Shown here: piece after piece, positions 2,600-35,257 of the stretch | Layout of the letters: every line of letters begins with the position of its first letter | Position numbering within the stretch: the first letter of the stretch is position 1 | Assembly: GCA_029239235.1 (NCBI GenBank) | Contig: JAQZBD010000006.1 | Location: 1-38,271 of the forward strand | DNA: 38,271 bases | Direction: 5' to 3' | From: Herbinix sp. | Lineage (GTDB): Bacteria > Bacillota > Clostridia > Lachnospirales > Lachnospiraceae | Notes under the pieces: generated by a model | What the model was told of the DNA's origin: nothing | Seen by the model: only the letters and a program-made list of their open reading frames with translations | Database searches by the model: none | Made by a program: the position numbers and the translations under genes

Positions 2600-5139
2600 A
2601 TATTTTTAACAAAATCACTCTGCAAAGCTTGAAAAAGAGCCGTACCCGTACAATTGTAACGGTGATCGGAGTGGTTCTGTCCACCGCCATGATTACAGCA
2701 GTAGCCAGCTTTGCCATTTCTCTGCAAAACTATTTAATAAACGGTGCTGTCGCCAAATATGGTGATTGGCATATTGAAATCCCGGACACAGATTCCTCCT
2801 TTGTACAGGAACAGTCAGAGAACAGCCAAGTGGCAAAGGCGGTAACGCTCCAGAACCTTGGCTATGCTTCACTGGAGAATGGACGAAATCCCAGCAAGCC
2901 CTATTTATTTATTACCGGTTGGGATAAGAAAGCCATGGATACGCTCCCCATCGAGCTGCTTTATGGCAGATTGCCGGAGAACAGCAGCGAAATCGTGATA
3001 CCTGCTCATATTGCGGCTAATGCCGGTGTGAAAATTTTAGTGGGTGATACCCTCACGCTTTCGGTTGGAAACCGTATGAAGAGCGGTCAGAAGCTTAGTC
3101 AACACGATTCCTATTATGCAGGAGAAGAATCCCTAGTACCCACGACCGAGAAAACATATACGGTTGTCGGCATCTGCCAACGACCAGCAATTGAGGAATA
3201 TGCTGCACCCGGATACACCTTAATCACAATAGAGGATACAGCTGCAGCAGATAGTCTTAGCGTGTTTATTACGTTGAAGAACCCTTATCAGGTTCATTCT
3301 TATGCGAGCAGCATATCAAACAGGCACAGTTACGTCTTAAATGATGCAGTATTGCGTTTTATGGGACTTTCAGGGGAGAGGATAATTACAGTTCTTCTGT
3401 ATTCCATTGGCAGTATTTTGATTGCCCTGGTTATGCTGGGTTCCGTGTTTCTGATCTATAACTCCTTCAACATCTCCTTAAATGAACGTACACACCAGTT
3501 TGGTATTCTCATGTCGGTAGGTGCCACGGAAAAGCAGCTGCGCTATTCTGTACTGTTTGAGGGTCTTTGCATCGGTACAATCGGTATTCCGATCGGTATT
3601 ATAGTAGGGATACCAAGCATCAAGCTTGTGCTTGCTCTTGTAGAAAAGAATTTCGTTAATGTTATGTATGACAATGTATCCTTGACTTTGGTGGTGTCTG
3701 TTCCTGCTCTTATTGCTGCTGCGGTGATTAGTATGATCACCATTTTGATCTCAGCCTATCTTCCGGCAAAGAAGGCCGCCGGGATACCTGTGATGGAATG
3801 TATCCGCCAGACAAACGAGGTCAAGTTAGAAACCAAAGCCATAAGAATCTCAAAGCTCTCAGAGCACCTATTTGGTTTAGAGGAAATACTTGTGTTAAAA
3901 AATTTCAAGAGAAACCGGCGGCGTTACCGCAGCATTATCCTTTCGCTTACGTTAAGCGTCGTGTTGTTTGTGTCGGCAAGCTCTTTCGGAACCTATTTGA
4001 ATCAGCTGGCGAATAATTCATCCGCGGTAATGGAGGAATATGACATCTGTTTCTATACACGAGATATGGAGGAAAGCGAGCTGCTCCAGCTTTACGATGA
4101 GCTGAAAACTGCCGACGGCATAACACAGAGCTCTTATCAGGCTCTCTCCACCTATTCCTGTGTACTAAATACCGGTGATCTGTCTAGTCATTTTATTGAC
4201 GAGTACGGTAAACCCCTCGGTTATGATGGAACTGGTGAAACCGTGGATGTGCAATTGGATATTCAGTTTGTTGAGGACAGCGTCTATCAGAAACTGCTAA
4301 GCGGTCTGGGTTTGTCCCCAGAGGAATACTCTGGGCAGGACAATAAAATGATTATGGCGGGAATTTTGCCCGGGAGCTGGTATACACAGGAGCAGCCTAT
4401 GGAATTTACACTCCGCTCCAAGATCGGAGACCAGACAAAAACACTCGATGTGACCTTTGTAAAAGACTATCCGGATCTGCTGCCCGCATATCCCGGTGAT
4501 TGGACCGGGTATTCTCTTATGGTGATTGCTCCTTACGAGGTAAAACCACAGTTTGATGCACTCAATGCCACTGTAAAGCCAACAAAGCTGGGCATGACCT
4601 TCCAGTCAGAGAATCCAGGTGAGTCTACTGCAAAGATTCAAACCATAATTGATGGAGCCGGCGTTGCCGCCGACTATAGTCTGTACAATGTCTATCAGAT
4701 ACTGGAAGAAAACCGCAATATCAACTTCATTGTCAAGCTTTTCTCAACTGTTTTTATCACTATGATTTCGCTGATCGCGGTTGGGAACGTATTTAATACG
4801 ATTTCTACCAATATTAAGCTGAGCAGAAGGGAATTCGCCATCCTTCGTTCTGTCGGGATGTCCGATCGGGATTTTAATAAGATGATGCTCTTTGAATGCG
4901 CTCTTTATGGAGCACGGACATTGCTATGGGGTCTACCTCTCTCAGGAATTCTTTCCTGCCTGATTTATCAGGGTATGGTCGTTGGTGGAGCAGACAACAT
5001 TGATTTTGTGTTCCCCTTGGGCATTATGGCAATATGTGTGTTTGGTGTGCTCTTTGTTGTATTTATTACAATGCTATATGCCACTAGCAAGATAAAAAAA
5101 GAAAATATTATTGATGCACTTCGGGATGATTTGACTTAA
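2596..5139 (+). CDS. ABC transporter permease, tandem FtsX domains, 8 TM
   Basis: This is an 847-residue permease with a duplicated FtsX plan: TM1 (about 18-42), a large extracytoplasmic domain (43-260), TM2-4 (about 265-390), TM5 (446-468), a second large extracytoplasmic domain (about 470-710), and TM6-8 (about 711-832). This 1+3+1+3 arrangement with two external domains differs from the 10-TM BceB permeases with one large loop, although the kinase and operator look Bce-like. It overlaps the ATPase gene by four bases. The sequence ITLQSLKKSRTRT before TM1 is typical of the family. The substrate is unknown; an antimicrobial peptide or a lipid-linked compound is plausible from context only. 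Confidence 0.9.
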   Translation: MNIFNKITLQSLKKSRTRTIVTVIGVVLSTAMITAVASFAISLQNYLINGAVAKYGDWHIEIPDTDSSFVQEQSENSQVAKAVTLQNLGYASLENGRNPSKPYLFITGWDKKAMDTLPIELLYGRLPENSSEIVIPAHIAANAGVKILVGDTLTLSVGNRMKSGQKLSQHDSYYAGEESLVPTTEKTYTVVGICQRPAIEEYAAPGYTLITIEDTAAADSLSVFITLKNPYQVHSYASSISNRHSYVLNDAVLRFMGLSGERIITVLLYSIGSILIALVMLGSVFLIYNSFNISLNERTHQFGILMSVGATEKQLRYSVLFEGLCIGTIGIPIGIIVGIPSIKLVLALVEKNFVNVMYDNVSLTLVVSVPALIAAAVISMITILISAYLPAKKAAGIPVMECIRQTNEVKLETKAIRISKLSEHLFGLEEILVLKNFKRNRRRYRSIILSLTLSVVLFVSASSFGTYLNQLANNSSAVMEEYDICFYTRDMEESELLQLYDELKTADGITQSSYQALSTYSCVLNTGDLSSHFIDEYGKPLGYDGTGETVDVQLDIQFVEDSVYQKLLSGLGLSPEEYSGQDNKMIMAGILPGSWYTQEQPMEFTLRSKIGDQTKTLDVTFVKDYPDLLPAYPGDWTGYSLMVIAPYEVKPQFDALNATVKPTKLGMTFQSENPGESTAKIQTIIDGAGVAADYSLYNVYQILEENRNINFIVKLFSTVFITMISLIAVGNVFNTISTNIKLSRREFAILRSVGMSDRDFNKMMLFECALYGARTLLWGLPLSGILSCLIYQGMVVGGADNIDFVFPLGIMAICVFGVLFVVFITMLYATSKIKKENIIDALRDDLT

Positions 5140-5274: not shown

Positions 5275-6648
5275 TCAACATTTTTTGTAGGACAAAAGTA
5301 CAACCGTCTCTACATGCGTCGAATGACTAAACTGATCCACCGCTCTAACCCTTGTCAACTCATAATCCCTCTCACAAAGATACTTCAAATCCCTAGCCAA
5401 GGTCGCTGGATCACAGGATACATACACCACTCTCTTTGGCGCCATAGCTAGAATTGTATCGAGCAAGCTCTGATCACAGCCCTTTCTCGGAGGATCAACA
5501 ACAATAACATCCGCCTTAATCTTCTCTTCCTTATACTTTTTCGGAAGAATCTCCTCGGCAGCTCCCACAAAGAATTCTGCATTCCTAATACCATTTAACT
5601 CTGCATTCTTCTTTGCATCCTCAATGGCCTGAGGAATTATCTCAACACCATATACCTGCATTGCCCTTTGAGCCAGGAACAAAGATATGGTTCCGATCCC
5701 GCAATACAAATCCCACACGACCTCATCACCGTTTAAATCGGCATATTCCAAAGCAAGATCATACAATTTCTTTGTTTGAACCGGATTCACCTGATAGAAG
5801 GATAAAGGTGAAATCTGATAGTTAACCTCTCCAATGGAGTCCGTAATATACGGCTCACCCCAGAGTGGAATTACCTTATTCCCAAGAATGACATTGGTTT
5901 TCTCTTTATTGACATTTAAGCAGATACTCTTCATTCCCGGTATCTTACGCAAGCCTTCAACCAGTTCGTCCTGGTCCGGAATTTTCGTTCCATTAATCAC
6001 AAGACAGACCATAATCTCACCGCTGTTAAAGCCCATACGAATTAAAATATGTCGTAATAAGCCCTTATGCCCCTCTTCATCATAGGGTTCTATCCGCTTG
6101 TCCTCAATAAAGGAACGTAAGTAGGCCAGGATATCCTCGTTCACTCTCGCTCCAATATAGCAATGCTTTGTATCAATAATGGAGTGAGTGCGGCCGGCAT
6201 AAAAGCCGATAGCAACACTTCCATCCTTATTCCTTCCCACCGGATATTGGGATTTATTACGGTAGTAATAGGGTTCCTCCATACCGCTAATAGGCTCCAT
6301 CAGGATATCTGCGAAACCACCTATTCTGGTGAGACAGTTACGCACCTTGTTTTCCTTATACTCCAGCTGCTTTTGATAATCCACATGCATCAGCTGGCAG
6401 CCACCGCATTTTGCTGCTATGGGACATCTTGGCTCAACCCGAAATATTGAAGGGTCTAGTAGCTTAACCAGTCTGGCATAGCCATAGCTCTTTCCGGTCT
6501 TCATTACCTGCACCAGAGCCCTGTCACCCATCATGGTATCCTTGACAAACAGGGTATACCCCTCATACTTGCCAATACCTTCTCCTTCGGAACCGATATC
6601 CTCTATTAAGATTTCAACCTGATCGTTTTTCTTCAACCTTGTCTGCAT
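5275..6648 (-). CDS. rlmD: 23S rRNA (uracil-C5)-methyltransferase, RlmCD/RumA type
   Basis: This is a 457-residue TrmA/RumA-family enzyme that uses S-adenosylmethionine to make 5-methyluridine in 23S rRNA. An N-terminal TRAM RNA-binding domain (about 5-60) is followed by a 4Fe-4S site C75-x5-C81-x2-C84 with C163 as the likely fourth ligand. The methyltransferase domain follows, with DLYCGIGT (SAM binding), VDPPRKGC and the catalytic SCDPATLARD near the C-terminus. In Firmicutes one such enzyme (RlmCD) often modifies two positions; I cannot tell RlmCD, RlmD or TrmA-like specificity apart here. It starts three bases after the yhaM stop, so the two form an operon. Confidence 0.93.
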   Translation of the reverse strand: MQTRLKKNDQVEILIEDIGSEGEGIGKYEGYTLFVKDTMMGDRALVQVMKTGKSYGYARLVKLLDPSIFRVEPRCPIAAKCGGCQLMHVDYQKQLEYKENKVRNCLTRIGGFADILMEPISGMEEPYYYRNKSQYPVGRNKDGSVAIGFYAGRTHSIIDTKHCYIGARVNEDILAYLRSFIEDKRIEPYDEEGHKGLLRHILIRMGFNSGEIMVCLVINGTKIPDQDELVEGLRKIPGMKSICLNVNKEKTNVILGNKVIPLWGEPYITDSIGEVNYQISPLSFYQVNPVQTKKLYDLALEYADLNGDEVVWDLYCGIGTISLFLAQRAMQVYGVEIIPQAIEDAKKNAELNGIRNAEFFVGAAEEILPKKYKEEKIKADVIVVDPPRKGCDQSLLDTILAMAPKRVVYVSCDPATLARDLKYLCERDYELTRVRAVDQFSHSTHVETVVLLSYKKC

Positions 6649-6651
6649 ATA

Positions 6652-7605
6652 TTATTCCTTTGTTTTTGTACTGCGCTTAATATTTGATTCGAATAGCTTC
6701 TGGTAGCCTACCCATTCCAATTTCTTGTCCGCTGAGGCAAATATTTCTGTCATGGTTTGCATCTTCGCATCCAGATTGTCTGCAAAATGCAGCGCCAAAG
6801 CCTCTGCCGTAGCCGGCTTTTTAGGAGAACCGTATTCCAGCTCCCCATGATGTGCCAGAATACAATGAATTAACTCATTAGCAAGCTTTGCCGGAAATTT
6901 ATTTGCTTTTTTGATATAGTTACTTACTATATTTGCACCGATAAAAATATGTCCTAATAACTGACCGTCATCTGTATAATCGTTTTCCGGAAAGGTTGAT
7001 AGCTCCTGCATTTTACCAACATCATGGAATAAAGCCGCCGTAATCAGTATGTCCCTATTTAAGATCGGATAGTTCATCGCATAAAAATCACAGAGCTTTG
7101 CCACACTCAGAGTATGCTCCAGTAACCCTCCCACAAAGCTGTGATGAACTGCCTTTGCTGCGGAGTGATAGCGGAAGCTTTTCACAAAGTCTGAGTCATT
7201 AACAAAGAAATCCTCTGCCAGAATTCTTAAATTCGGCTCTTTGATGGATGCAATAAGCTCCTTAACCTCTTTATACATCCCGTCCACATTCTTCGTTGTT
7301 ACCGGGAAATAATCCTCTGGATAGTATTCCCCTTCTCTGGCTTTGTATATACGGCTGACATTCAGCTGCAAGGAATCCTGAAAACTAGTTACACGGGCAT
7401 CGATATGTACAAAGTCCATAGATTCATACTGCTCAATCTCCGCATTAAAATCCCATATCTTCGCATCAATCATTCCCGTCTTGTCCTGGAGCATTAAGGA
7501 AACATAGCTTTTTCCGCTCTTTCCTGTCAGCACCTGCTTAGACTTACATAAATATATCTCATTCTTAATAAAATCATTTTCTCTTAATTCTTGTATAAAT
7601 CTCAT
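6652..7605 (-). CDS. yhaM: 3'-5' exoribonuclease YhaM-like (OB fold + HD domain)
   Basis: This protein of about 317 residues has an N-terminal OB-fold nucleic-acid-binding domain (sequence around SLMLQDKTGMIDAKIWD) and a C-terminal HD phosphohydrolase domain. The HD domain shows HSFVGGLLEHT, the metal pair in ALFHDVGK and a later LAHHGELE. This is the YhaM architecture, a Firmicutes 3'-5' exonuclease acting on RNA and DNA. I start it at ATG 7605 (MRFIQELREND), preceded by AGGG, because that is the family's usual N-terminus; an upstream in-frame extension to 7653 is open. It is co-transcribed with rlmD three bases downstream. Confidence 0.9.
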   Translation of the reverse strand: MRFIQELRENDFIKNEIYLCKSKQVLTGKSGKSYVSLMLQDKTGMIDAKIWDFNAEIEQYESMDFVHIDARVTSFQDSLQLNVSRIYKAREGEYYPEDYFPVTTKNVDGMYKEVKELIASIKEPNLRILAEDFFVNDSDFVKSFRYHSAAKAVHHSFVGGLLEHTLSVAKLCDFYAMNYPILNRDILITAALFHDVGKMQELSTFPENDYTDDGQLLGHIFIGANIVSNYIKKANKFPAKLANELIHCILAHHGELEYGSPKKPATAEALALHFADNLDAKMQTMTEIFASADKKLEWVGYQKLFESNIKRSTKTKE

Positions 7606-12152: not shown

Positions 12153-12875
12153 ATGATCGCAAAGCAGAAAATAATGGTTGTTGATGATGATGTCAATATC
12201 GCTGAACTTATATCACTCTATTTAACAAAGGAGTGCTTTGATACCTTAATTGTAAATGATGGAGAGGCGGCAATTAAGCAGTTTGCTATCTATCAGCCAA
12301 ATCTGGTATTACTGGATTTGATGCTGCCCGGCATTGACGGCTATGAGGTATGCCGTGAAATCAGAAAAAACTCAAAAGTACCAATCATCATGCTTTCAGC
12401 GAAGGGAGAAATCTTTGATAAGGTTCTTGGACTGGAATTGGGCGCAGATGATTATATCATTAAGCCTTTTGATTCGAAAGAGCTTGTCGCGAGAGCCAGG
12501 GCTGTTTTAAGACGTTTTCAGCCGGAAATTAAGGAAGAGGATGTATCCGCTCCTGCTCCGACCGGTAACTATGTGTCTTATCCTGATTTAATGATTAATT
12601 TAAGCAATTACTCCGTTCAGTATTATGGCTCAACCATAGAAATGCCTCCAAAAGAGCTTGAGCTCCTATACTTTTTAGCATCTAATCCGAATCAAGTGTT
12701 CACCAGAGAGCAGCTTCTGGATCATATCTGGGGATATGAATACTTTGGTGATACCAGAACTGTGGATGTTCATATTAAACGTCTTAGAGAAAAGATTAAA
12801 GATCATCAACAGTGGAGCTTAGCAACCGTTTGGGGCATTGGTTATAAATTCGAAGCAAAGACTACAAAGAGATAG
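12153..12875 (+). CDS. OmpR/PhoB-family response regulator
   Basis: This is a 240-residue response regulator. The receiver has acidic D11-D13, phosphoacceptor D55 in LLDLMLPG, S82 and K104 in IIKPFD. The winged-helix output domain (about 140-235) includes FTREQLLDHIWGYEY, VDVHIKRLREKI and the final WGIGYKFE. AAAGGAGC sits eight bases before the ATG. It lies 17 bases after mutS2 and directly before its kinase, so mutS2-regulator-kinase probably forms one transcript. The domain wording resembles the WalR/PhoP/YycF type. The regulon is unknown. Confidence 0.95.
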   Translation: MIAKQKIMVVDDDVNIAELISLYLTKECFDTLIVNDGEAAIKQFAIYQPNLVLLDLMLPGIDGYEVCREIRKNSKVPIIMLSAKGEIFDKVLGLELGADDYIIKPFDSKELVARARAVLRRFQPEIKEEDVSAPAPTGNYVSYPDLMINLSNYSVQYYGSTIEMPPKELELLYFLASNPNQVFTREQLLDHIWGYEYFGDTRTVDVHIKRLREKIKDHQQWSLATVWGIGYKFEAKTTKR

Positions 12876-12891
12876 AAGGGCTGGTGTTTCC

Positions 12892-14307
12892 ATGAAAAAG
12901 ACCTTATGGTCAAGGCTAATTGTATGCTTCTTGTTCGTAGGGGTATTAGTTTTTTTGCTTTTGAATACATATGGTGTTAATTTCCTGGAAAAGCAATTAA
13001 GAGCCGAAAAGCTGATTCAACTTGAAAAGGAAGCTAAACTCATATCAGCAGAATATATTAATAATTATTATGATAGTAATTTAACCTTAGAAGATTTAAA
13101 AACACAATTAAAATCCATAGAAACCTTCCTTGGCATACGGGTATGGATCGTAAATACCGCTGGGAATATTGTTGCCGATTCCTCTTCTTCCAATCGGGCT
13201 ATGGGAAAAAATATTTTGGATTTAAATCCAGAGTTCCTGGAGCATGTCATTAATGATAACAACTATTTCAGCGGAATTTTTAGTGAACCAATGCTCAGCT
13301 ATACAAAGACCTTGGATTATAACCAACGTATCCGTGGATATATTGTCTTACTCACTTCCCAAAACGGGATTACAAAGGACACTACAAAGTATATTGATGT
13401 TGTAAATATCTGTCTTTTGGTATTTATGCCCTTATTGTTTTTAATGTTTCTTTATTTATATTACATCACAGCAATACCACTTCAGAACCTAACGAAAGCT
13501 GCTATGAAATACAGTTCCGGTAATTATAATTATACTTTGAAGCAGAAGGGTCTAAGTGAATATCGGGATCTTGGTGATGCCATATCCTTTATGGCTGGTG
13601 AGCTTGGCAAGCTGGACGACTACCAAAAGAAATTTGTTGCTAATATCTCCCACGATTTTCGCTCTCCTTTAACCTCAATTAAAGGCTTTGCAGAGGCAAT
13701 CAAGGACGGCACCATACCTCACGAGATGCAGGATCGGTATTTGGATATTATTTTGTTTGAAACGGAGCGATTAACAAAGCTAACCTCCAATCTATTAGAA
13801 TTAAATAGCTTTGAGACAAAGGGCAATGGTAACTTCCTAGATATAACCTCCTTTGATATTAACAATATCATAAAAAAGACGGCAGAAAGCTTTGAAGGCC
13901 GCTGCCGTGACAAAAAGATTACACTAAATTTGATCTTCTCCTCCAAGGAAATGCTAGTGGATGCTGACATGGGAAAAATCCAGCAGGTGCTTTATAACCT
14001 GATTGATAATGCCATTAAGTTTAGTCACGCCAACTCCAAGATCAGGGTATCCACAGAAGAGAAGGGTGATAAAATATTCATTTCTGTCAAGGATTATGGT
14101 GTTGGTATTCCAAAGGAATCCATTAAGAAGATCTGGGAACGCTTTTATAAAACTGATCCCTCCAGAGGTAAGGATAAGCGAGGCACAGGTCTTGGCTTGT
14201 CCATTACCAAGGAAATCATTCAAGCTCATAATGAGAATATTAATGTTATCAGTACCGAAGGAGTCGGCACCGAGTTTATATTTTCATTAACTAAAACATC
14301 AGAATAG
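12892..14307 (+). CDS. Sensor histidine kinase with HAMP domain
   Basis: This is a kinase of about 471 residues: TM1 (9-28), an extracytoplasmic sensor of about 140 residues, TM2 (about 168-190), HAMP, a HisKA domain with H254 in NISHDFRSPLTS, and HATPase_c with DNAIKFSH, DYGVGIP and GTGLGLSI. I start at ATG 12892 (MKKTLWSRL), preceded by AAGGG after the regulator stop; the open frame further upstream overlaps the regulator and is not needed. The partner is the regulator at 12153-12875. The external loop looks PAS/Cache-like (GIRVWIVNTAGNIVADS), so the signal is probably extracellular. A strong terminator follows. Confidence 0.94.
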   Translation: MKKTLWSRLIVCFLFVGVLVFLLLNTYGVNFLEKQLRAEKLIQLEKEAKLISAEYINNYYDSNLTLEDLKTQLKSIETFLGIRVWIVNTAGNIVADSSSSNRAMGKNILDLNPEFLEHVINDNNYFSGIFSEPMLSYTKTLDYNQRIRGYIVLLTSQNGITKDTTKYIDVVNICLLVFMPLLFLMFLYLYYITAIPLQNLTKAAMKYSSGNYNYTLKQKGLSEYRDLGDAISFMAGELGKLDDYQKKFVANISHDFRSPLTSIKGFAEAIKDGTIPHEMQDRYLDIILFETERLTKLTSNLLELNSFETKGNGNFLDITSFDINNIIKKTAESFEGRCRDKKITLNLIFSSKEMLVDADMGKIQQVLYNLIDNAIKFSHANSKIRVSTEEKGDKIFISVKDYGVGIPKESIKKIWERFYKTDPSRGKDKRGTGLGLSITKEIIQAHNENINVISTEGVGTEFIFSLTKTSE

Positions 14308-14309
14308 CT

Positions 14310-14342
14310 ATAGAGTGCTGAGTCATCGGCACTCTATTTTTT
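14310..14342 (+). terminator. Intrinsic terminator of the mutS2 operon
   Basis: The stem ATAGAGTGCTGA (14310-14321) pairs with TCGGCACTCTAT (14326-14337) through one G-U, with a GTCA loop and a following run of T to 14342. It starts three bases after the kinase stop. Confidence 0.9.
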
Positions 14343-14399
14343 GCACTTAAGTACTTTCCTGAGAATCTTAATTATTTTCTAATTGTACAATTTCCCTAT

Positions 14400-14415: not shown

Positions 14416-14514
14416 CAGTATTTTCACAATATTAAAATGTTAGCTTTTCCTTGCTTTATTTGTTATCATTATTGTGTAAATCAAGAGGAGAATGTAGGGA
14501 TGCATTTTCTGTTT

Positions 14515-14545
14515 ATTGCCCTCGATTAAATAGAAAGAGGGTGAT
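14515..14545 (+). promoter_or_regulatory. SD-sequestering hairpin in the toxin leader
   Basis: ATTGCCCTC (14515-14523) can pair with GAGGGTGAT (14537-14545) over nine positions, two of them G-U. The right arm contains the ribosome binding site GAGGGTG of the small peptide gene. Hidden ribosome binding sites are typical of type I toxin mRNAs. Confidence 0.6.
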
Positions 14546-14549
14546 GCCT

Positions 14550-14630
14550 ATGAATACAATTGAAGTTCTGACTTTATTGTTGGTTATCTTCGCGGCATTG
14601 TCTTATATAGATAATAAGCATAAAAAATAA
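14550..14630 (+). CDS. Small hydrophobic peptide, likely type I toxin (holin-like family)
   Basis: This gene encodes 26 residues: start MNTIEVLTLLLVIFAAL, then SYIDN and a lysine-rich end KHKK. It has one membrane helix (about 6-20) followed by a polar, positively charged tail, the pattern of the putative holin-like toxin family (Hol_Tox) and of type I toxins such as TxpA or BsrG. AGAGGGTG lies about seven bases before ATG 14550; an in-frame ATG at 14544 is less well spaced. The ribosome binding site can be hidden in a hairpin. The 3' end of its transcript is overlapped by a convergent RNA with a consensus promoter (14622-14708, minus), which fits an antisense antitoxin. Family assignment is by pattern, so it is moderately sure. 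Confidence 0.7.
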   Translation: MNTIEVLTLLLVIFAALSYIDNKHKK

Positions 14631-14660
14631 GCATCCCACCGTCCAAGTATGATGCTTATT
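14622..14660 (-). terminator. Terminator of the antisense RNA
   Basis: Perfect 10-bp arms AATAAGCATC (14626-14635) and GATGCTTATT (14651-14660) are followed by a T6 tract on the minus strand (14622-14627 read in reverse). It overlaps the stop codon of the toxin gene. Confidence 0.75.
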
Positions 14661-14708
14661 CGTTAATACATATAAGGGCATCAGATTTTGCATCTGAGTA
14701 CCTTTTCT
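14622..14708 (-). ncRNA. Predicted antisense antitoxin RNA
   Basis: Predicted RNA of about 85-90 bases on the minus strand. The promoter TTGATT-N17-TATAAT lies just upstream. The RNA would start near 14708, contain a small stem (TCAGAT/ATCTGA) and end at a hairpin with 10-bp perfect arms (14651-14660 and 14626-14635) followed by TTTTTT. It is fully complementary to the 3' part of the toxin mRNA, including its last codons. This is the arrangement of txpA/ratA-type type I systems. Exact ends are inferred. Confidence 0.65.
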
Positions 14709-14714
14709 GTCTTG

Positions 14715-14743
14715 ATTATACATCAGGGTGCTTGTTAAATCAA
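14715..14743 (-). promoter_or_regulatory. Consensus promoter of the antisense RNA
   Basis: On the minus strand TTGATT (14738-14743), a 17-base spacer, then a perfect TATAAT (14715-14720). The -35 and most of the spacer lie inside the stem-loop of the toxin terminator (14725-14754), a very compact overlap. Confidence 0.75.
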
Positions 14744-14754
14744 GCACCCTTTTT
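14725..14754 (+). terminator. Terminator of the toxin mRNA
   Basis: AGGGTGCTTG (14725-14734) and CAAGCACCCT (14741-14750) pair perfectly around a six-base loop and are followed by TTTT. It is the first strong plus-strand terminator after the toxin-like gene. On the minus strand it would also help to end trmL transcription. Confidence 0.8.
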
Positions 14755-14809
14755 ACTTAATAATCATTTTTTAGTAACTATGATAATTTTTTATTACTAT
14801 AAATAAAGG

Positions 14810-15307
14810 TTAAGCCTCATCCCAACTATACTTATGAAGCTTTCCGTCCATACGCATTCCTTCAAAATTATTCTGCCTCAATGCCTCATACAGAATAATT
14901 GCCACCGAATTTCCCAGGTTTAACGACCTAATATCACCAACCATGGGGATTCGGATGGTATTATCTTTATTATCAAGTAACAGCTCCTCAGGAATTCCTG
15001 CACTTTCCTTACCAAACATAATGTAGCAGTCAGGATCATATTCCACATGGGTATAGGAGTGCTGAGCCTTGGTTGTAGCCATATAGATCTTAGCATTTGG
15101 GTTCTTATCTAAAAAGTCCTGGTAATTATCATAAACAGTTACATCAAGATCCTTCCAGTAGTCCAGACCTGCTCGTTTAATCTCTTTTTCACTCAGGCGA
15201 AACCCCATGGGTTCGATGAGGTGAAGTCTTGTTCCCGTTGCCACACAGGTTCTTCCGATGTTACCTGTGTTAGCAGGTATCTCAGGCTCTAACAATACGA
15301 TATTCAA
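14810..15307 (-). CDS. trmL: tRNA (cytidine/uridine-34-2'-O)-methyltransferase TrmL
   Basis: This is a 165-residue SPOUT (TrmH/SpoU family) methyltransferase that methylates the 2'-O of the wobble base in certain leucine tRNAs. Family motifs are NTGNIGRTC near the N-terminus, FGKESAGIPEELL in the middle and RSLNLGNSVAIILYEALRQ at the C-terminus, which form the trefoil-knot SAM site. The length is that of minimal TrmL/YibK proteins. The start is TTG at 15305-15307, with GGAGG eight bases upstream. The AT-rich hairpin TAGTAA/TTACTA after the stop is too weak to call a terminator. Confidence 0.94.
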   Translation of the reverse strand: MNIVLLEPEIPANTGNIGRTCVATGTRLHLIEPMGFRLSEKEIKRAGLDYWKDLDVTVYDNYQDFLDKNPNAKIYMATTKAQHSYTHVEYDPDCYIMFGKESAGIPEELLLDNKDNTIRIPMVGDIRSLNLGNSVAIILYEALRQNNFEGMRMDGKLHKYSWDEA

Positions 15308-35183: not shown

Positions 35184-35257
35184 TAGCGAAGGACGGATTT
35201 GAACCGCCGACACCGCGGGTATGAACCGCGTGCTCTCGCCAACTGAGCTACTTCGCC
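35184..35257 (-). tRNA. tRNA-Met (anticodon CAT), elongator type
   Basis: 74 bases fold as a cloverleaf: acceptor GGCGAAG/CTTCGCT with a G-U at position 1-72, D arm GCTC/GAGC, anticodon arm CGCGG/CCGCG with loop TTCATAC (anticodon CAT), and T arm GGCGG/CCGTC with loop TTCAAAT. The discriminator is A and no CCA is encoded. The first pair G-U and the anticodon stem without three G-C pairs at the loop argue for an elongator rather than initiator tRNA; a tRNA-Ile2 is less likely. Confidence 0.92.

Follow-up and report, generated by a model that had tools for sequence, protein, structure and literature searches.

A sensor histidine kinase gene (12838-14307, plus strand) and a SpoU-type methyltransferase gene (14810-15307, minus strand; tentatively trmL) are separated by about 0.5 kb; does this interval hold a type I toxin-antitoxin system? 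The window, meaning the whole stretch of 38,271 nucleotides that was analyzed, had been read from its letters alone as carrying one here: a hydrophobic peptide under the control of a convergent antisense RNA. We concluded, with a probability of about 85%, that the window locus is a chromosomal type I toxin-antitoxin cassette on the bsrG/SR4 plan, with predicted transcripts and a presumed toxicity. The anatomy of the locus, its conservation, the selection on the peptide, the complementarity of the mRNA ends, and the absence of the cassette from this site in congeners were established by computation. The parts are as follows.

14440-14469, plus strand: putative toxin promoter, TTAGCT, 18 nt, and TATCAT with TGT before it (extended -10); the best upstream sigma-70 match, weak (8/12)
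14474-14549, plus strand: toxin mRNA leader, in which GGGATGC (14497-14503) and TTGCCCTC (14516-14523) are able to pair 3' of the stop codon
14516-14543, plus strand: Shine-Dalgarno (SD) hairpin predicted by folding, the anti-SD at 14516-14523 with the SD GAGGGTG at 14537-14543
14550-14630, plus strand: toxin candidate ORF of 26 residues, with one hydrophobic stretch and a lysine-rich C terminus, from translation and homologues
14622-14660, minus strand: antitoxin terminator, a 10-bp perfect stem and T run, overlapping the ORF stop codon
14622-14708, minus strand: predicted antitoxin RNA of about 87 nt, fully complementary to the 3' part of the mRNA, its ends taken from promoter and terminator
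14674-14697, plus strand: 3' untranslated region (UTR) elements able to pair with the leader, AAGGGC (14674-14679) and GCATCTGA (14690-14697)
14715-14743, minus strand: antitoxin promoter, TTGATT, 17 nt, and TATAAT (10/12 matches)
14725-14754, plus strand: toxin mRNA terminator, whose hairpin contains the antitoxin -35 (14738-14743)

The toxin mRNA would start at about 14474-14477. Its ORF encodes MNTIEVLTLLLVIFAALSYIDNKHKK, which has a single membrane-type stretch in 26 residues (best 15-residue hydropathy value, 2.67), and GAGGG at 14537-14541 is spaced 8 nt from the ATG; the hydrophobic ORF and good ribosome binding site of the sequence-only reading are thus where it placed them, as are the other elements it named. 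The SD hairpin appeared in every energy-model fold of the window locus, with the SD unpaired at 0.004-0.03 over 7 nt, and its helix is conserved (98.2% of cells paired across 34 type-1 loci). On the minus strand, the arms of the antitoxin terminator, AATAAGCATC (14626-14635) and GATGCTTATT (14651-14660), are perfectly complementary over 10 bp and are followed by six T; our terminator scan omits this hairpin because its loop is 15 nt and the scan's loop limit is 8. The hairpin of the plus-strand terminator (14725-14750) has 10 pairs, 6 of them G-C, and then TTTTT. In a 2.5-kb scan, we found 4 terminator-like sites against 1.0 expected; promoter-like sites numbered 8, and shuffles averaged 10.2, so that the match of the antitoxin promoter is not significant alone. 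A separate plus-strand terminator at 14310-14345 closes the histidine kinase gene ahead of the cassette, which is therefore probably transcribed on its own. At the gathering threshold, Rfam finds a single match in the window, a tRNA gene (35184-35257, minus strand).

The peptide occurs once in its genome and, at an E value of 1, in 5 of the 34 genomes of the genus, the window's own included. With an alignment of five members as query, the family yielded matches in 108/348 genomes at E 0.1; this permissive limit also lets in longer cousins of the Hol_Tox kind and, probably, chance hits. By our own count, the best match reaches E 1e-5 or better in 59/348, and at least one of these is a Hol_Tox cousin. 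At E 0.001, 8 of the 246 genomes of the order matched: five belong to other families, two of them (L260 and L261) with what look like longer Hol_Tox-type peptides, and three to the window's family, counting its own genome. The window's own genome was the sole match at that limit among 398 genomes sampled from the phylum. Searching by leader pattern gave 93 stretches from named genomes, mostly Lachnospiraceae or its genera and one from Bacilli, and 4 from viral contigs. The taxonomic family sampled here is probably the Lachnospiraceae; its carriers include Roseburia hominis and Eubacterium ramulus, and NCBI assigns Roseburia to the Lachnospiraceae and E. ramulus to the Eubacteriaceae. Related cassettes are thus present in many bacteria of the gut.

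We worked with three sets of relatives. Of 103 peptide hits, 21 scored less than 39 bits, 7 were duplicates, and 5 lacked an ATG start; without these, 70 distinct loci were left. At 75 to 145 nt, 60 of the loci carried an antisense promoter scoring 10/12 or better, and removal of near-identical leaders left 48, which fall into type 1 (n = 31), type 2 (n = 14), and type 3 (n = 3); tests on the 48 are therefore tests on loci chosen for that promoter. From 98 leader-pattern matches, 7 without an ORF and 6 that were duplicates or too near an end were removed, leaving 85 leader-selected loci, of which 72 are not identical to any of the 70 peptide-selected loci. In two matches (G060:C40:29018-29095 and G151:C11:156410-156487), the search flags one internal stop codon each; the ORF of these copies ends one or two residues early, and the flagged stop may be merely a shorter C terminus.

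We found that the parts named by the sequence-only reading are conserved together. It had proposed a minus-strand promoter at 14715-14743, and a minus-strand promoter of at least 10/12 lies within 230 nt after the stop codon in 61 of the 70 relatives; the plus strand of the same stretch has one in 12, and the observed value was reached by 99 of 1400 shuffles. It had also proposed a terminator over the ORF stop, and in 67/70 loci none of 20 shuffles equals the antitoxin terminator found there (34 of 1400 shuffles overall). Among the leader-selected loci, a minus-strand promoter is present in 80/85 and a plus-strand one in 14, and the terminator is above a fixed score, without shuffles, in 84/85; for the 72 non-identical loci, the promoter counts are 68/72 and 11/72. 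The plus-strand terminator overlaps the minus-strand -35 in 31/48 loci and in 10/960 shuffles. The promoter-in-terminator overlap first seen in the window is thus a trait of the family, not of the window copy alone. The antitoxin promoter outscores the best toxin promoter in 42/48 loci and is lower in 1, a comparison biased by the choice of loci for a good antitoxin promoter.

The peptide itself is under purifying selection. Over 45 loci, pN/pS was 0.186, a rough value since pS is near saturation (0.74), and pN was below pS in 99.9% of 990 pairs. In the antitoxin terminator stem of 31 relatives, 7 of 13 pairs are changed on both sides (13/500 shuffles reach this), with 49 cells changed on both sides (0/500 shuffles); the number of pair types is not raised (427/500). 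A covariance model of the type-1 antitoxin, built from 31 loci with the window's among them, scores the window's own 14624-14709 at 65.3 bits. Run on 84 of the 97 pattern records (those of the 85 loci), it gives at least 51 bits in each by a hand count that includes the model-building genomes. It found nothing at E 0.1 in bsrG (L255), L009, L003, or L008, and we took it to be specific to type 1 on that ground. Two hits at one place on another contig of the window genome (24.8 and 20.8 bits; E 0.07 and 0.5) were considered as a second antitoxin; by eye, the sequence there resembles a helicase gene, and we took them as chance. In the type-1 antitoxin terminator, the loop (columns 80-100 of A5; window 14636-14650, minus strand) is unusually conserved, reading about ACUUUGGACGGU, as would be expected of a recognition loop at which pairing with the mRNA begins. 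We concluded that the cassette is conserved and not a product of chance.

The family is new, and its plan is known. The window peptide had no match in NCBIfam, PHROGs, or PADLOC, and Rfam at the gathering threshold gave none at the locus or in 12 family loci. In the plasmid collection, neither protein nor DNA searches gave a match; in the phage collection, a type-2 peptide of the family and a Hol_Tox relative had none, and the L008 type had a single doubtful one (E 7). The literature searched contained none of six peptide strings from the family, and among the matches listed in the literature on type I systems and holin-like toxins, nothing concerned this family. Within these searches, with no Pfam or NCBIfam match above cutoff for the peptide, the impression that the locus was undescribed holds. 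YnaM-like PF23676 was considered and rejected (14.9 bits, E 0.021; Pfam cutoff, 27 bits), as was Rfam RatA RF01776 (22.3 bits against 49, E 1.5), which falls at 14657-14769 on the minus strand, out of register with the predicted antitoxin.

A comparison with the Hol_Tox profile had been suggested, and its outcome was divided. The window peptide has no Pfam match to Hol_Tox (PF16935; gathering cutoff, 23.3 bits), and other short members score 0 to 15.3 bits, under that cutoff. At the level of profiles, the likeness stood: a profile built from 22 family peptides and one from 10 Hol_Tox-type peptides align over their whole length (hhalign probability 97.8%, score 49.8; 51.8 without BsrG), while 60 column-shuffled controls scored 35.1 or less (one at 95.7% probability) and the reversed control 15.0. 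Peptides of the L008 type are intermediates (15.3 bits to Hol_Tox), and by eye their loci share flank sequences with Hol_Tox loci. We therefore call the window family a shortened branch of the BsrG/Hol_Tox group, as its profile likeness suggests.

The closest known counterpart is bsrG/SR4 of the Bacillus subtilis prophage SPbeta, a member of the TxpA/BsrG family, which shares with the window convergent genes overlapping at their 3' ends, an antisense RNA, an SD sequestered by the leader, and a predicted pairing of the 5' and 3' UTRs. BsrG matches Hol_Tox at 34.5 bits, and the window family resembles Hol_Tox by profile. The two differ in the peptide (38 residues in BsrG, 26 here), in the antitoxin (180 nt for SR4 [PMC7430163], about 87 nt predicted here), and in the predicted closure of the SD on antitoxin binding, which bsrG shows and the window copy does not. 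According to PMC7430163 and PMC6562991, the bsrG helix that sequesters the SD grows from 4 bp to 8 bp under SR4, which base-pairs with the 3' part of a main helix of that RNA, and the duplex is cleaved by RNase III. When we applied our calculation to bsrG mRNA, with guessed ends that give 297 nt (published length, 294 nt [PMC7430163]), we found 31 expected 5'/3' pairs and an SD opening of 0.128 when free and 0.007 with the SR4 target blocked. The bsrG leader resembles the 5' half of SR4 with a score of 34, above all 1000 mononucleotide shuffles; over a wider stretch, the score of 42 was reached by 37/500 dinucleotide shuffles. The plan of the cassette is thus known from bsrG/SR4, and the mRNA pairing is perhaps known there too.

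The par (Fst/RNA II) and hok/Sok systems share with the window a small membrane toxin with an antisense RNA, and the 5'/3' pairing of the mRNA is hok-like; their layouts are compared here by general description. The PXXXGC motif of Fst/Ldr (PMC8309996) is absent from the window peptide, which has no P, G, or C. In txpA/RatA of the B. subtilis skin element, the toxin mRNA and antisense RNA are likewise convergent and overlap at their 3' ends, by about 120 nt (PMC3531473); RatA is described as leaving the txpA SD region unchanged (PMC7430163). Clostridioides difficile modules (CD2517.1-RCd8 and others) bring convergent, overlapping toxin and antisense genes into the Clostridia (PMC6563280), and we set them beside the window by description, their toxins being described in that review as without similarity to known type I toxins.

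A new finding here is a likeness within the locus: inverted, the promoter and leader of the toxin look like the promoter and 5' half of the antitoxin. When the two were aligned within each of the 48 loci, the mean score was 39.2, compared with 28.7 for swapped partners and 23.2 for shuffles (0/5000 permutations), and the score was above the shuffle 95th percentile in 35/48 loci and above the shuffle maximum in 19. Distant lineages (L003, L004, L036, and L096) each have their own leader with their own matching antitoxin. The likeness in the window is moderate (score 35, reached by 5/500 shuffles). Of six of the seven Hol_Tox loci of the family, five have mirrored leaders beyond all 500 shuffles, and the sixth was reached by 8/500.

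Because the antitoxin leader mirrors the toxin leader, the 5' and 3' UTRs of the mRNA are able to pair. Consistently with this, pairing energies averaged -34.7 kcal/mol for a locus's own UTRs and -26.5 kcal/mol for swapped ones (0/5000 permutations, and also 0/5000 for swaps within types). For the leader against the segment just after the stop codon, the values were -15.6 and -12.9 (0/5000; within types, 1/5000). At least 15 expected 5'/3' pairs were predicted in 44/48 loci, and the predicted end-to-end pairing of the full-length window mRNA has a z score of -6.2 against mononucleotide shuffles. The 63 leader-selected type-1 loci have nearly uniform leaders, and there own and swapped partners are about equal (38.0 and 37.4, 187/2000; pairing energies, -35.4 and -34.7 kcal/mol, 38/2000). 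Both-side pair changes in the type-1 leader helices are few (2/11, reached by 34/500 shuffles, and 2/12, by 260/500); their paired-cell share and covariation score were reached by just 1 to 3 of 500 shuffles. The case for mirrored leaders rests on the comparison between lineages. Pairing in trans between the anti-SD copy in the antitoxin and the SD was also considered (own, -14.4 kcal/mol; swapped, -13.3 kcal/mol; 2/5000) and set aside because no locus ranks its own partner best.

These features suggest how the cassette may work. The weak promoter would drive the mRNA for a 26-residue membrane peptide, and the stronger-looking convergent promoter inside the mRNA terminator would drive an RNA of about 87 nt, fully complementary to the 3' part of the mRNA, that would act as the antitoxin. 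Present in excess, this RNA would anneal to the mRNA along a stretch that begins shortly before the stop codon, and RNase III would cut the duplex. Within the mRNA, the leader anti-SD would hold the SD; in most type-1 relatives, an SD-like GAGGGC in the 3' UTR could pull the anti-SD off, and an antitoxin covering the 3' UTR would let the anti-SD return to the SD, closing translation.

We examined this switch by folding, as energy-model predictions on assumed transcript ends. The type-1 leader GCCCTC can either close the SD GAGGG or pair with GAGGGC in the 3' UTR. Across the 31 type-1 loci, the predicted SD opening was 0.293 when free; blocking the antitoxin target lowered it to 0.087, and shuffling the 3' UTR to 0.101. 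From free to blocked, it fell in 23/31 and rose in 3. The 14 type-2 loci were unchanged on average (0.243 and 0.247; 1 fell and 1 rose), and in type 3 the opening fell in 2/3 loci on antitoxin binding. The window copy carries AAGGGC where most type-1 relatives carry GAGGGC, and its SD opening was 0.17 whether the mRNA was free, bound, or given a shuffled 3' UTR. Folding thus predicts no switch for the window copy, and for the relatives the switch, like the antitoxin excess and the RNase III cutting, would follow from the model above.

Could the same parts mean something else? The peptide might be a nontoxic membrane micropeptide, for instance with a ComI-like regulatory role, under antisense control. 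Some family members score weakly against NCBIfam ComI (12 to 17.8 bits; cutoff, 55), the window peptide having no NCBIfam match; the peptide is, however, profile-similar to Hol_Tox, which BsrG matches, and the plan of the locus, with a sequestered SD and a convergent antisense RNA, is that of a known toxin system. We consider this explanation unlikely. A hok- or AapA-like toxin-antitoxin locus, in which the full-length mRNA is inert through 5'/3' pairing and trimming of the 3' end makes it translatable, seems about equally improbable. It would account for the long pairing (at least 15 expected pairs) predicted in 44/48 loci, which is the form of the inert mRNA of AapA3 in Helicobacter (PMC6733600), but after trimming the SD is predicted to be more closed in 26/48 loci and more open in 4, the opposite of a hok-like switch. 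The review PMC6562991 also describes such processing as known from Gram-negative bacteria, with other ways in B. subtilis.

We judged it very improbable that the window holds a decayed, inactive copy of a cassette functional elsewhere, although the copy is single in its genome, is absent from the site in congeners, has AAGGGC in place of the usual GAGGGC, and has a weak toxin promoter (8/12). Its ORF, SD, both terminators, and antitoxin promoter are intact, and its antitoxin scores 65.3 bits in the family model, the window being among the 31 building sequences. A type I toxin-antitoxin cassette comparable to bsrG/SR4, as the sequence-only reading had it, is supported by the joint conservation of the parts, the purifying selection, the likeness to the Hol_Tox profile, and a 5'/3' pairing like that of bsrG/SR4.

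To place the cassette in the genus, we compared the kinase-methyltransferase site. The methyltransferase is present in 32 of the 34 genomes, and 30 loci were compared. In 25/30, the end of a histidine kinase gene is convergent within 1.5 kb of the methyltransferase; the window is one of these, with a gap of 515 nt. The other 24 have 20 gaps of 10 to 132 nt, too small for the cassette, and 4 gaps above 1 kb, in the genomes of which the peptide search found no match; the remaining 5/30 methyltransferase loci have no kinase in the flank. In the nearest relative, whose methyltransferase is 96% identical, the gap is 39 nt. Because 20 of the 24 congeners have a gap too short for it, the cassette was probably gained at the window site, and repeated loss appears less likely.

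Elsewhere, the cassette occurs in repeated copies, as in L020 (363 nt apart), L005 (409 nt), L159 (777 nt), L074, L191, and L192. On one strand of record L197, the antitoxin RNA matches three times in 3.7 kb (3907-4002, 5702-5795, and 7484-7588), with the exact leader motif at just one of these places; these are repeated cassettes, possibly with diverged leaders. The congener G024 (L002, L006, and L008) has two type-2-like copies, one of the L008 type, and seven Hol_Tox matches, and its kinase-methyltransferase site is empty. In the viral contigs L252 (5842-6732 with 7044-7077) and L254 (1289-2164 with 2760-2792), the cassette lies a few hundred bases from an integrase-family match. Since two of the four viral contigs pair the cassette with a phage integrase match, the cassette probably also travels on mobile elements.

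The family adds very small toxin candidates that fall under Pfam's cutoff; TADB 3.0 sets a 30-residue limit for predicted toxin or antitoxin proteins (PMC10767807), and the window peptide has 26. Its mirrored leaders are a sequence signature for finding more systems and offer an explanation, open to testing, of how binding at the 3' end could let an antitoxin shut a ribosome binding site that lies over 100 nt away. We tentatively extend this account to the BsrG/Hol_Tox group as a whole, at less than even odds: the antitoxin gene would be an inverted toxin promoter and leader kept alike by coevolution, the 3' UTR would be an anti-anti-SD that opens translation, and the antitoxin would shut translation remotely by covering the 3' UTR, with the ribosome binding site untouched. 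If true, it would hold as a general rule across a large class of Gram-positive type I systems and could be recognized with nothing but sequence.
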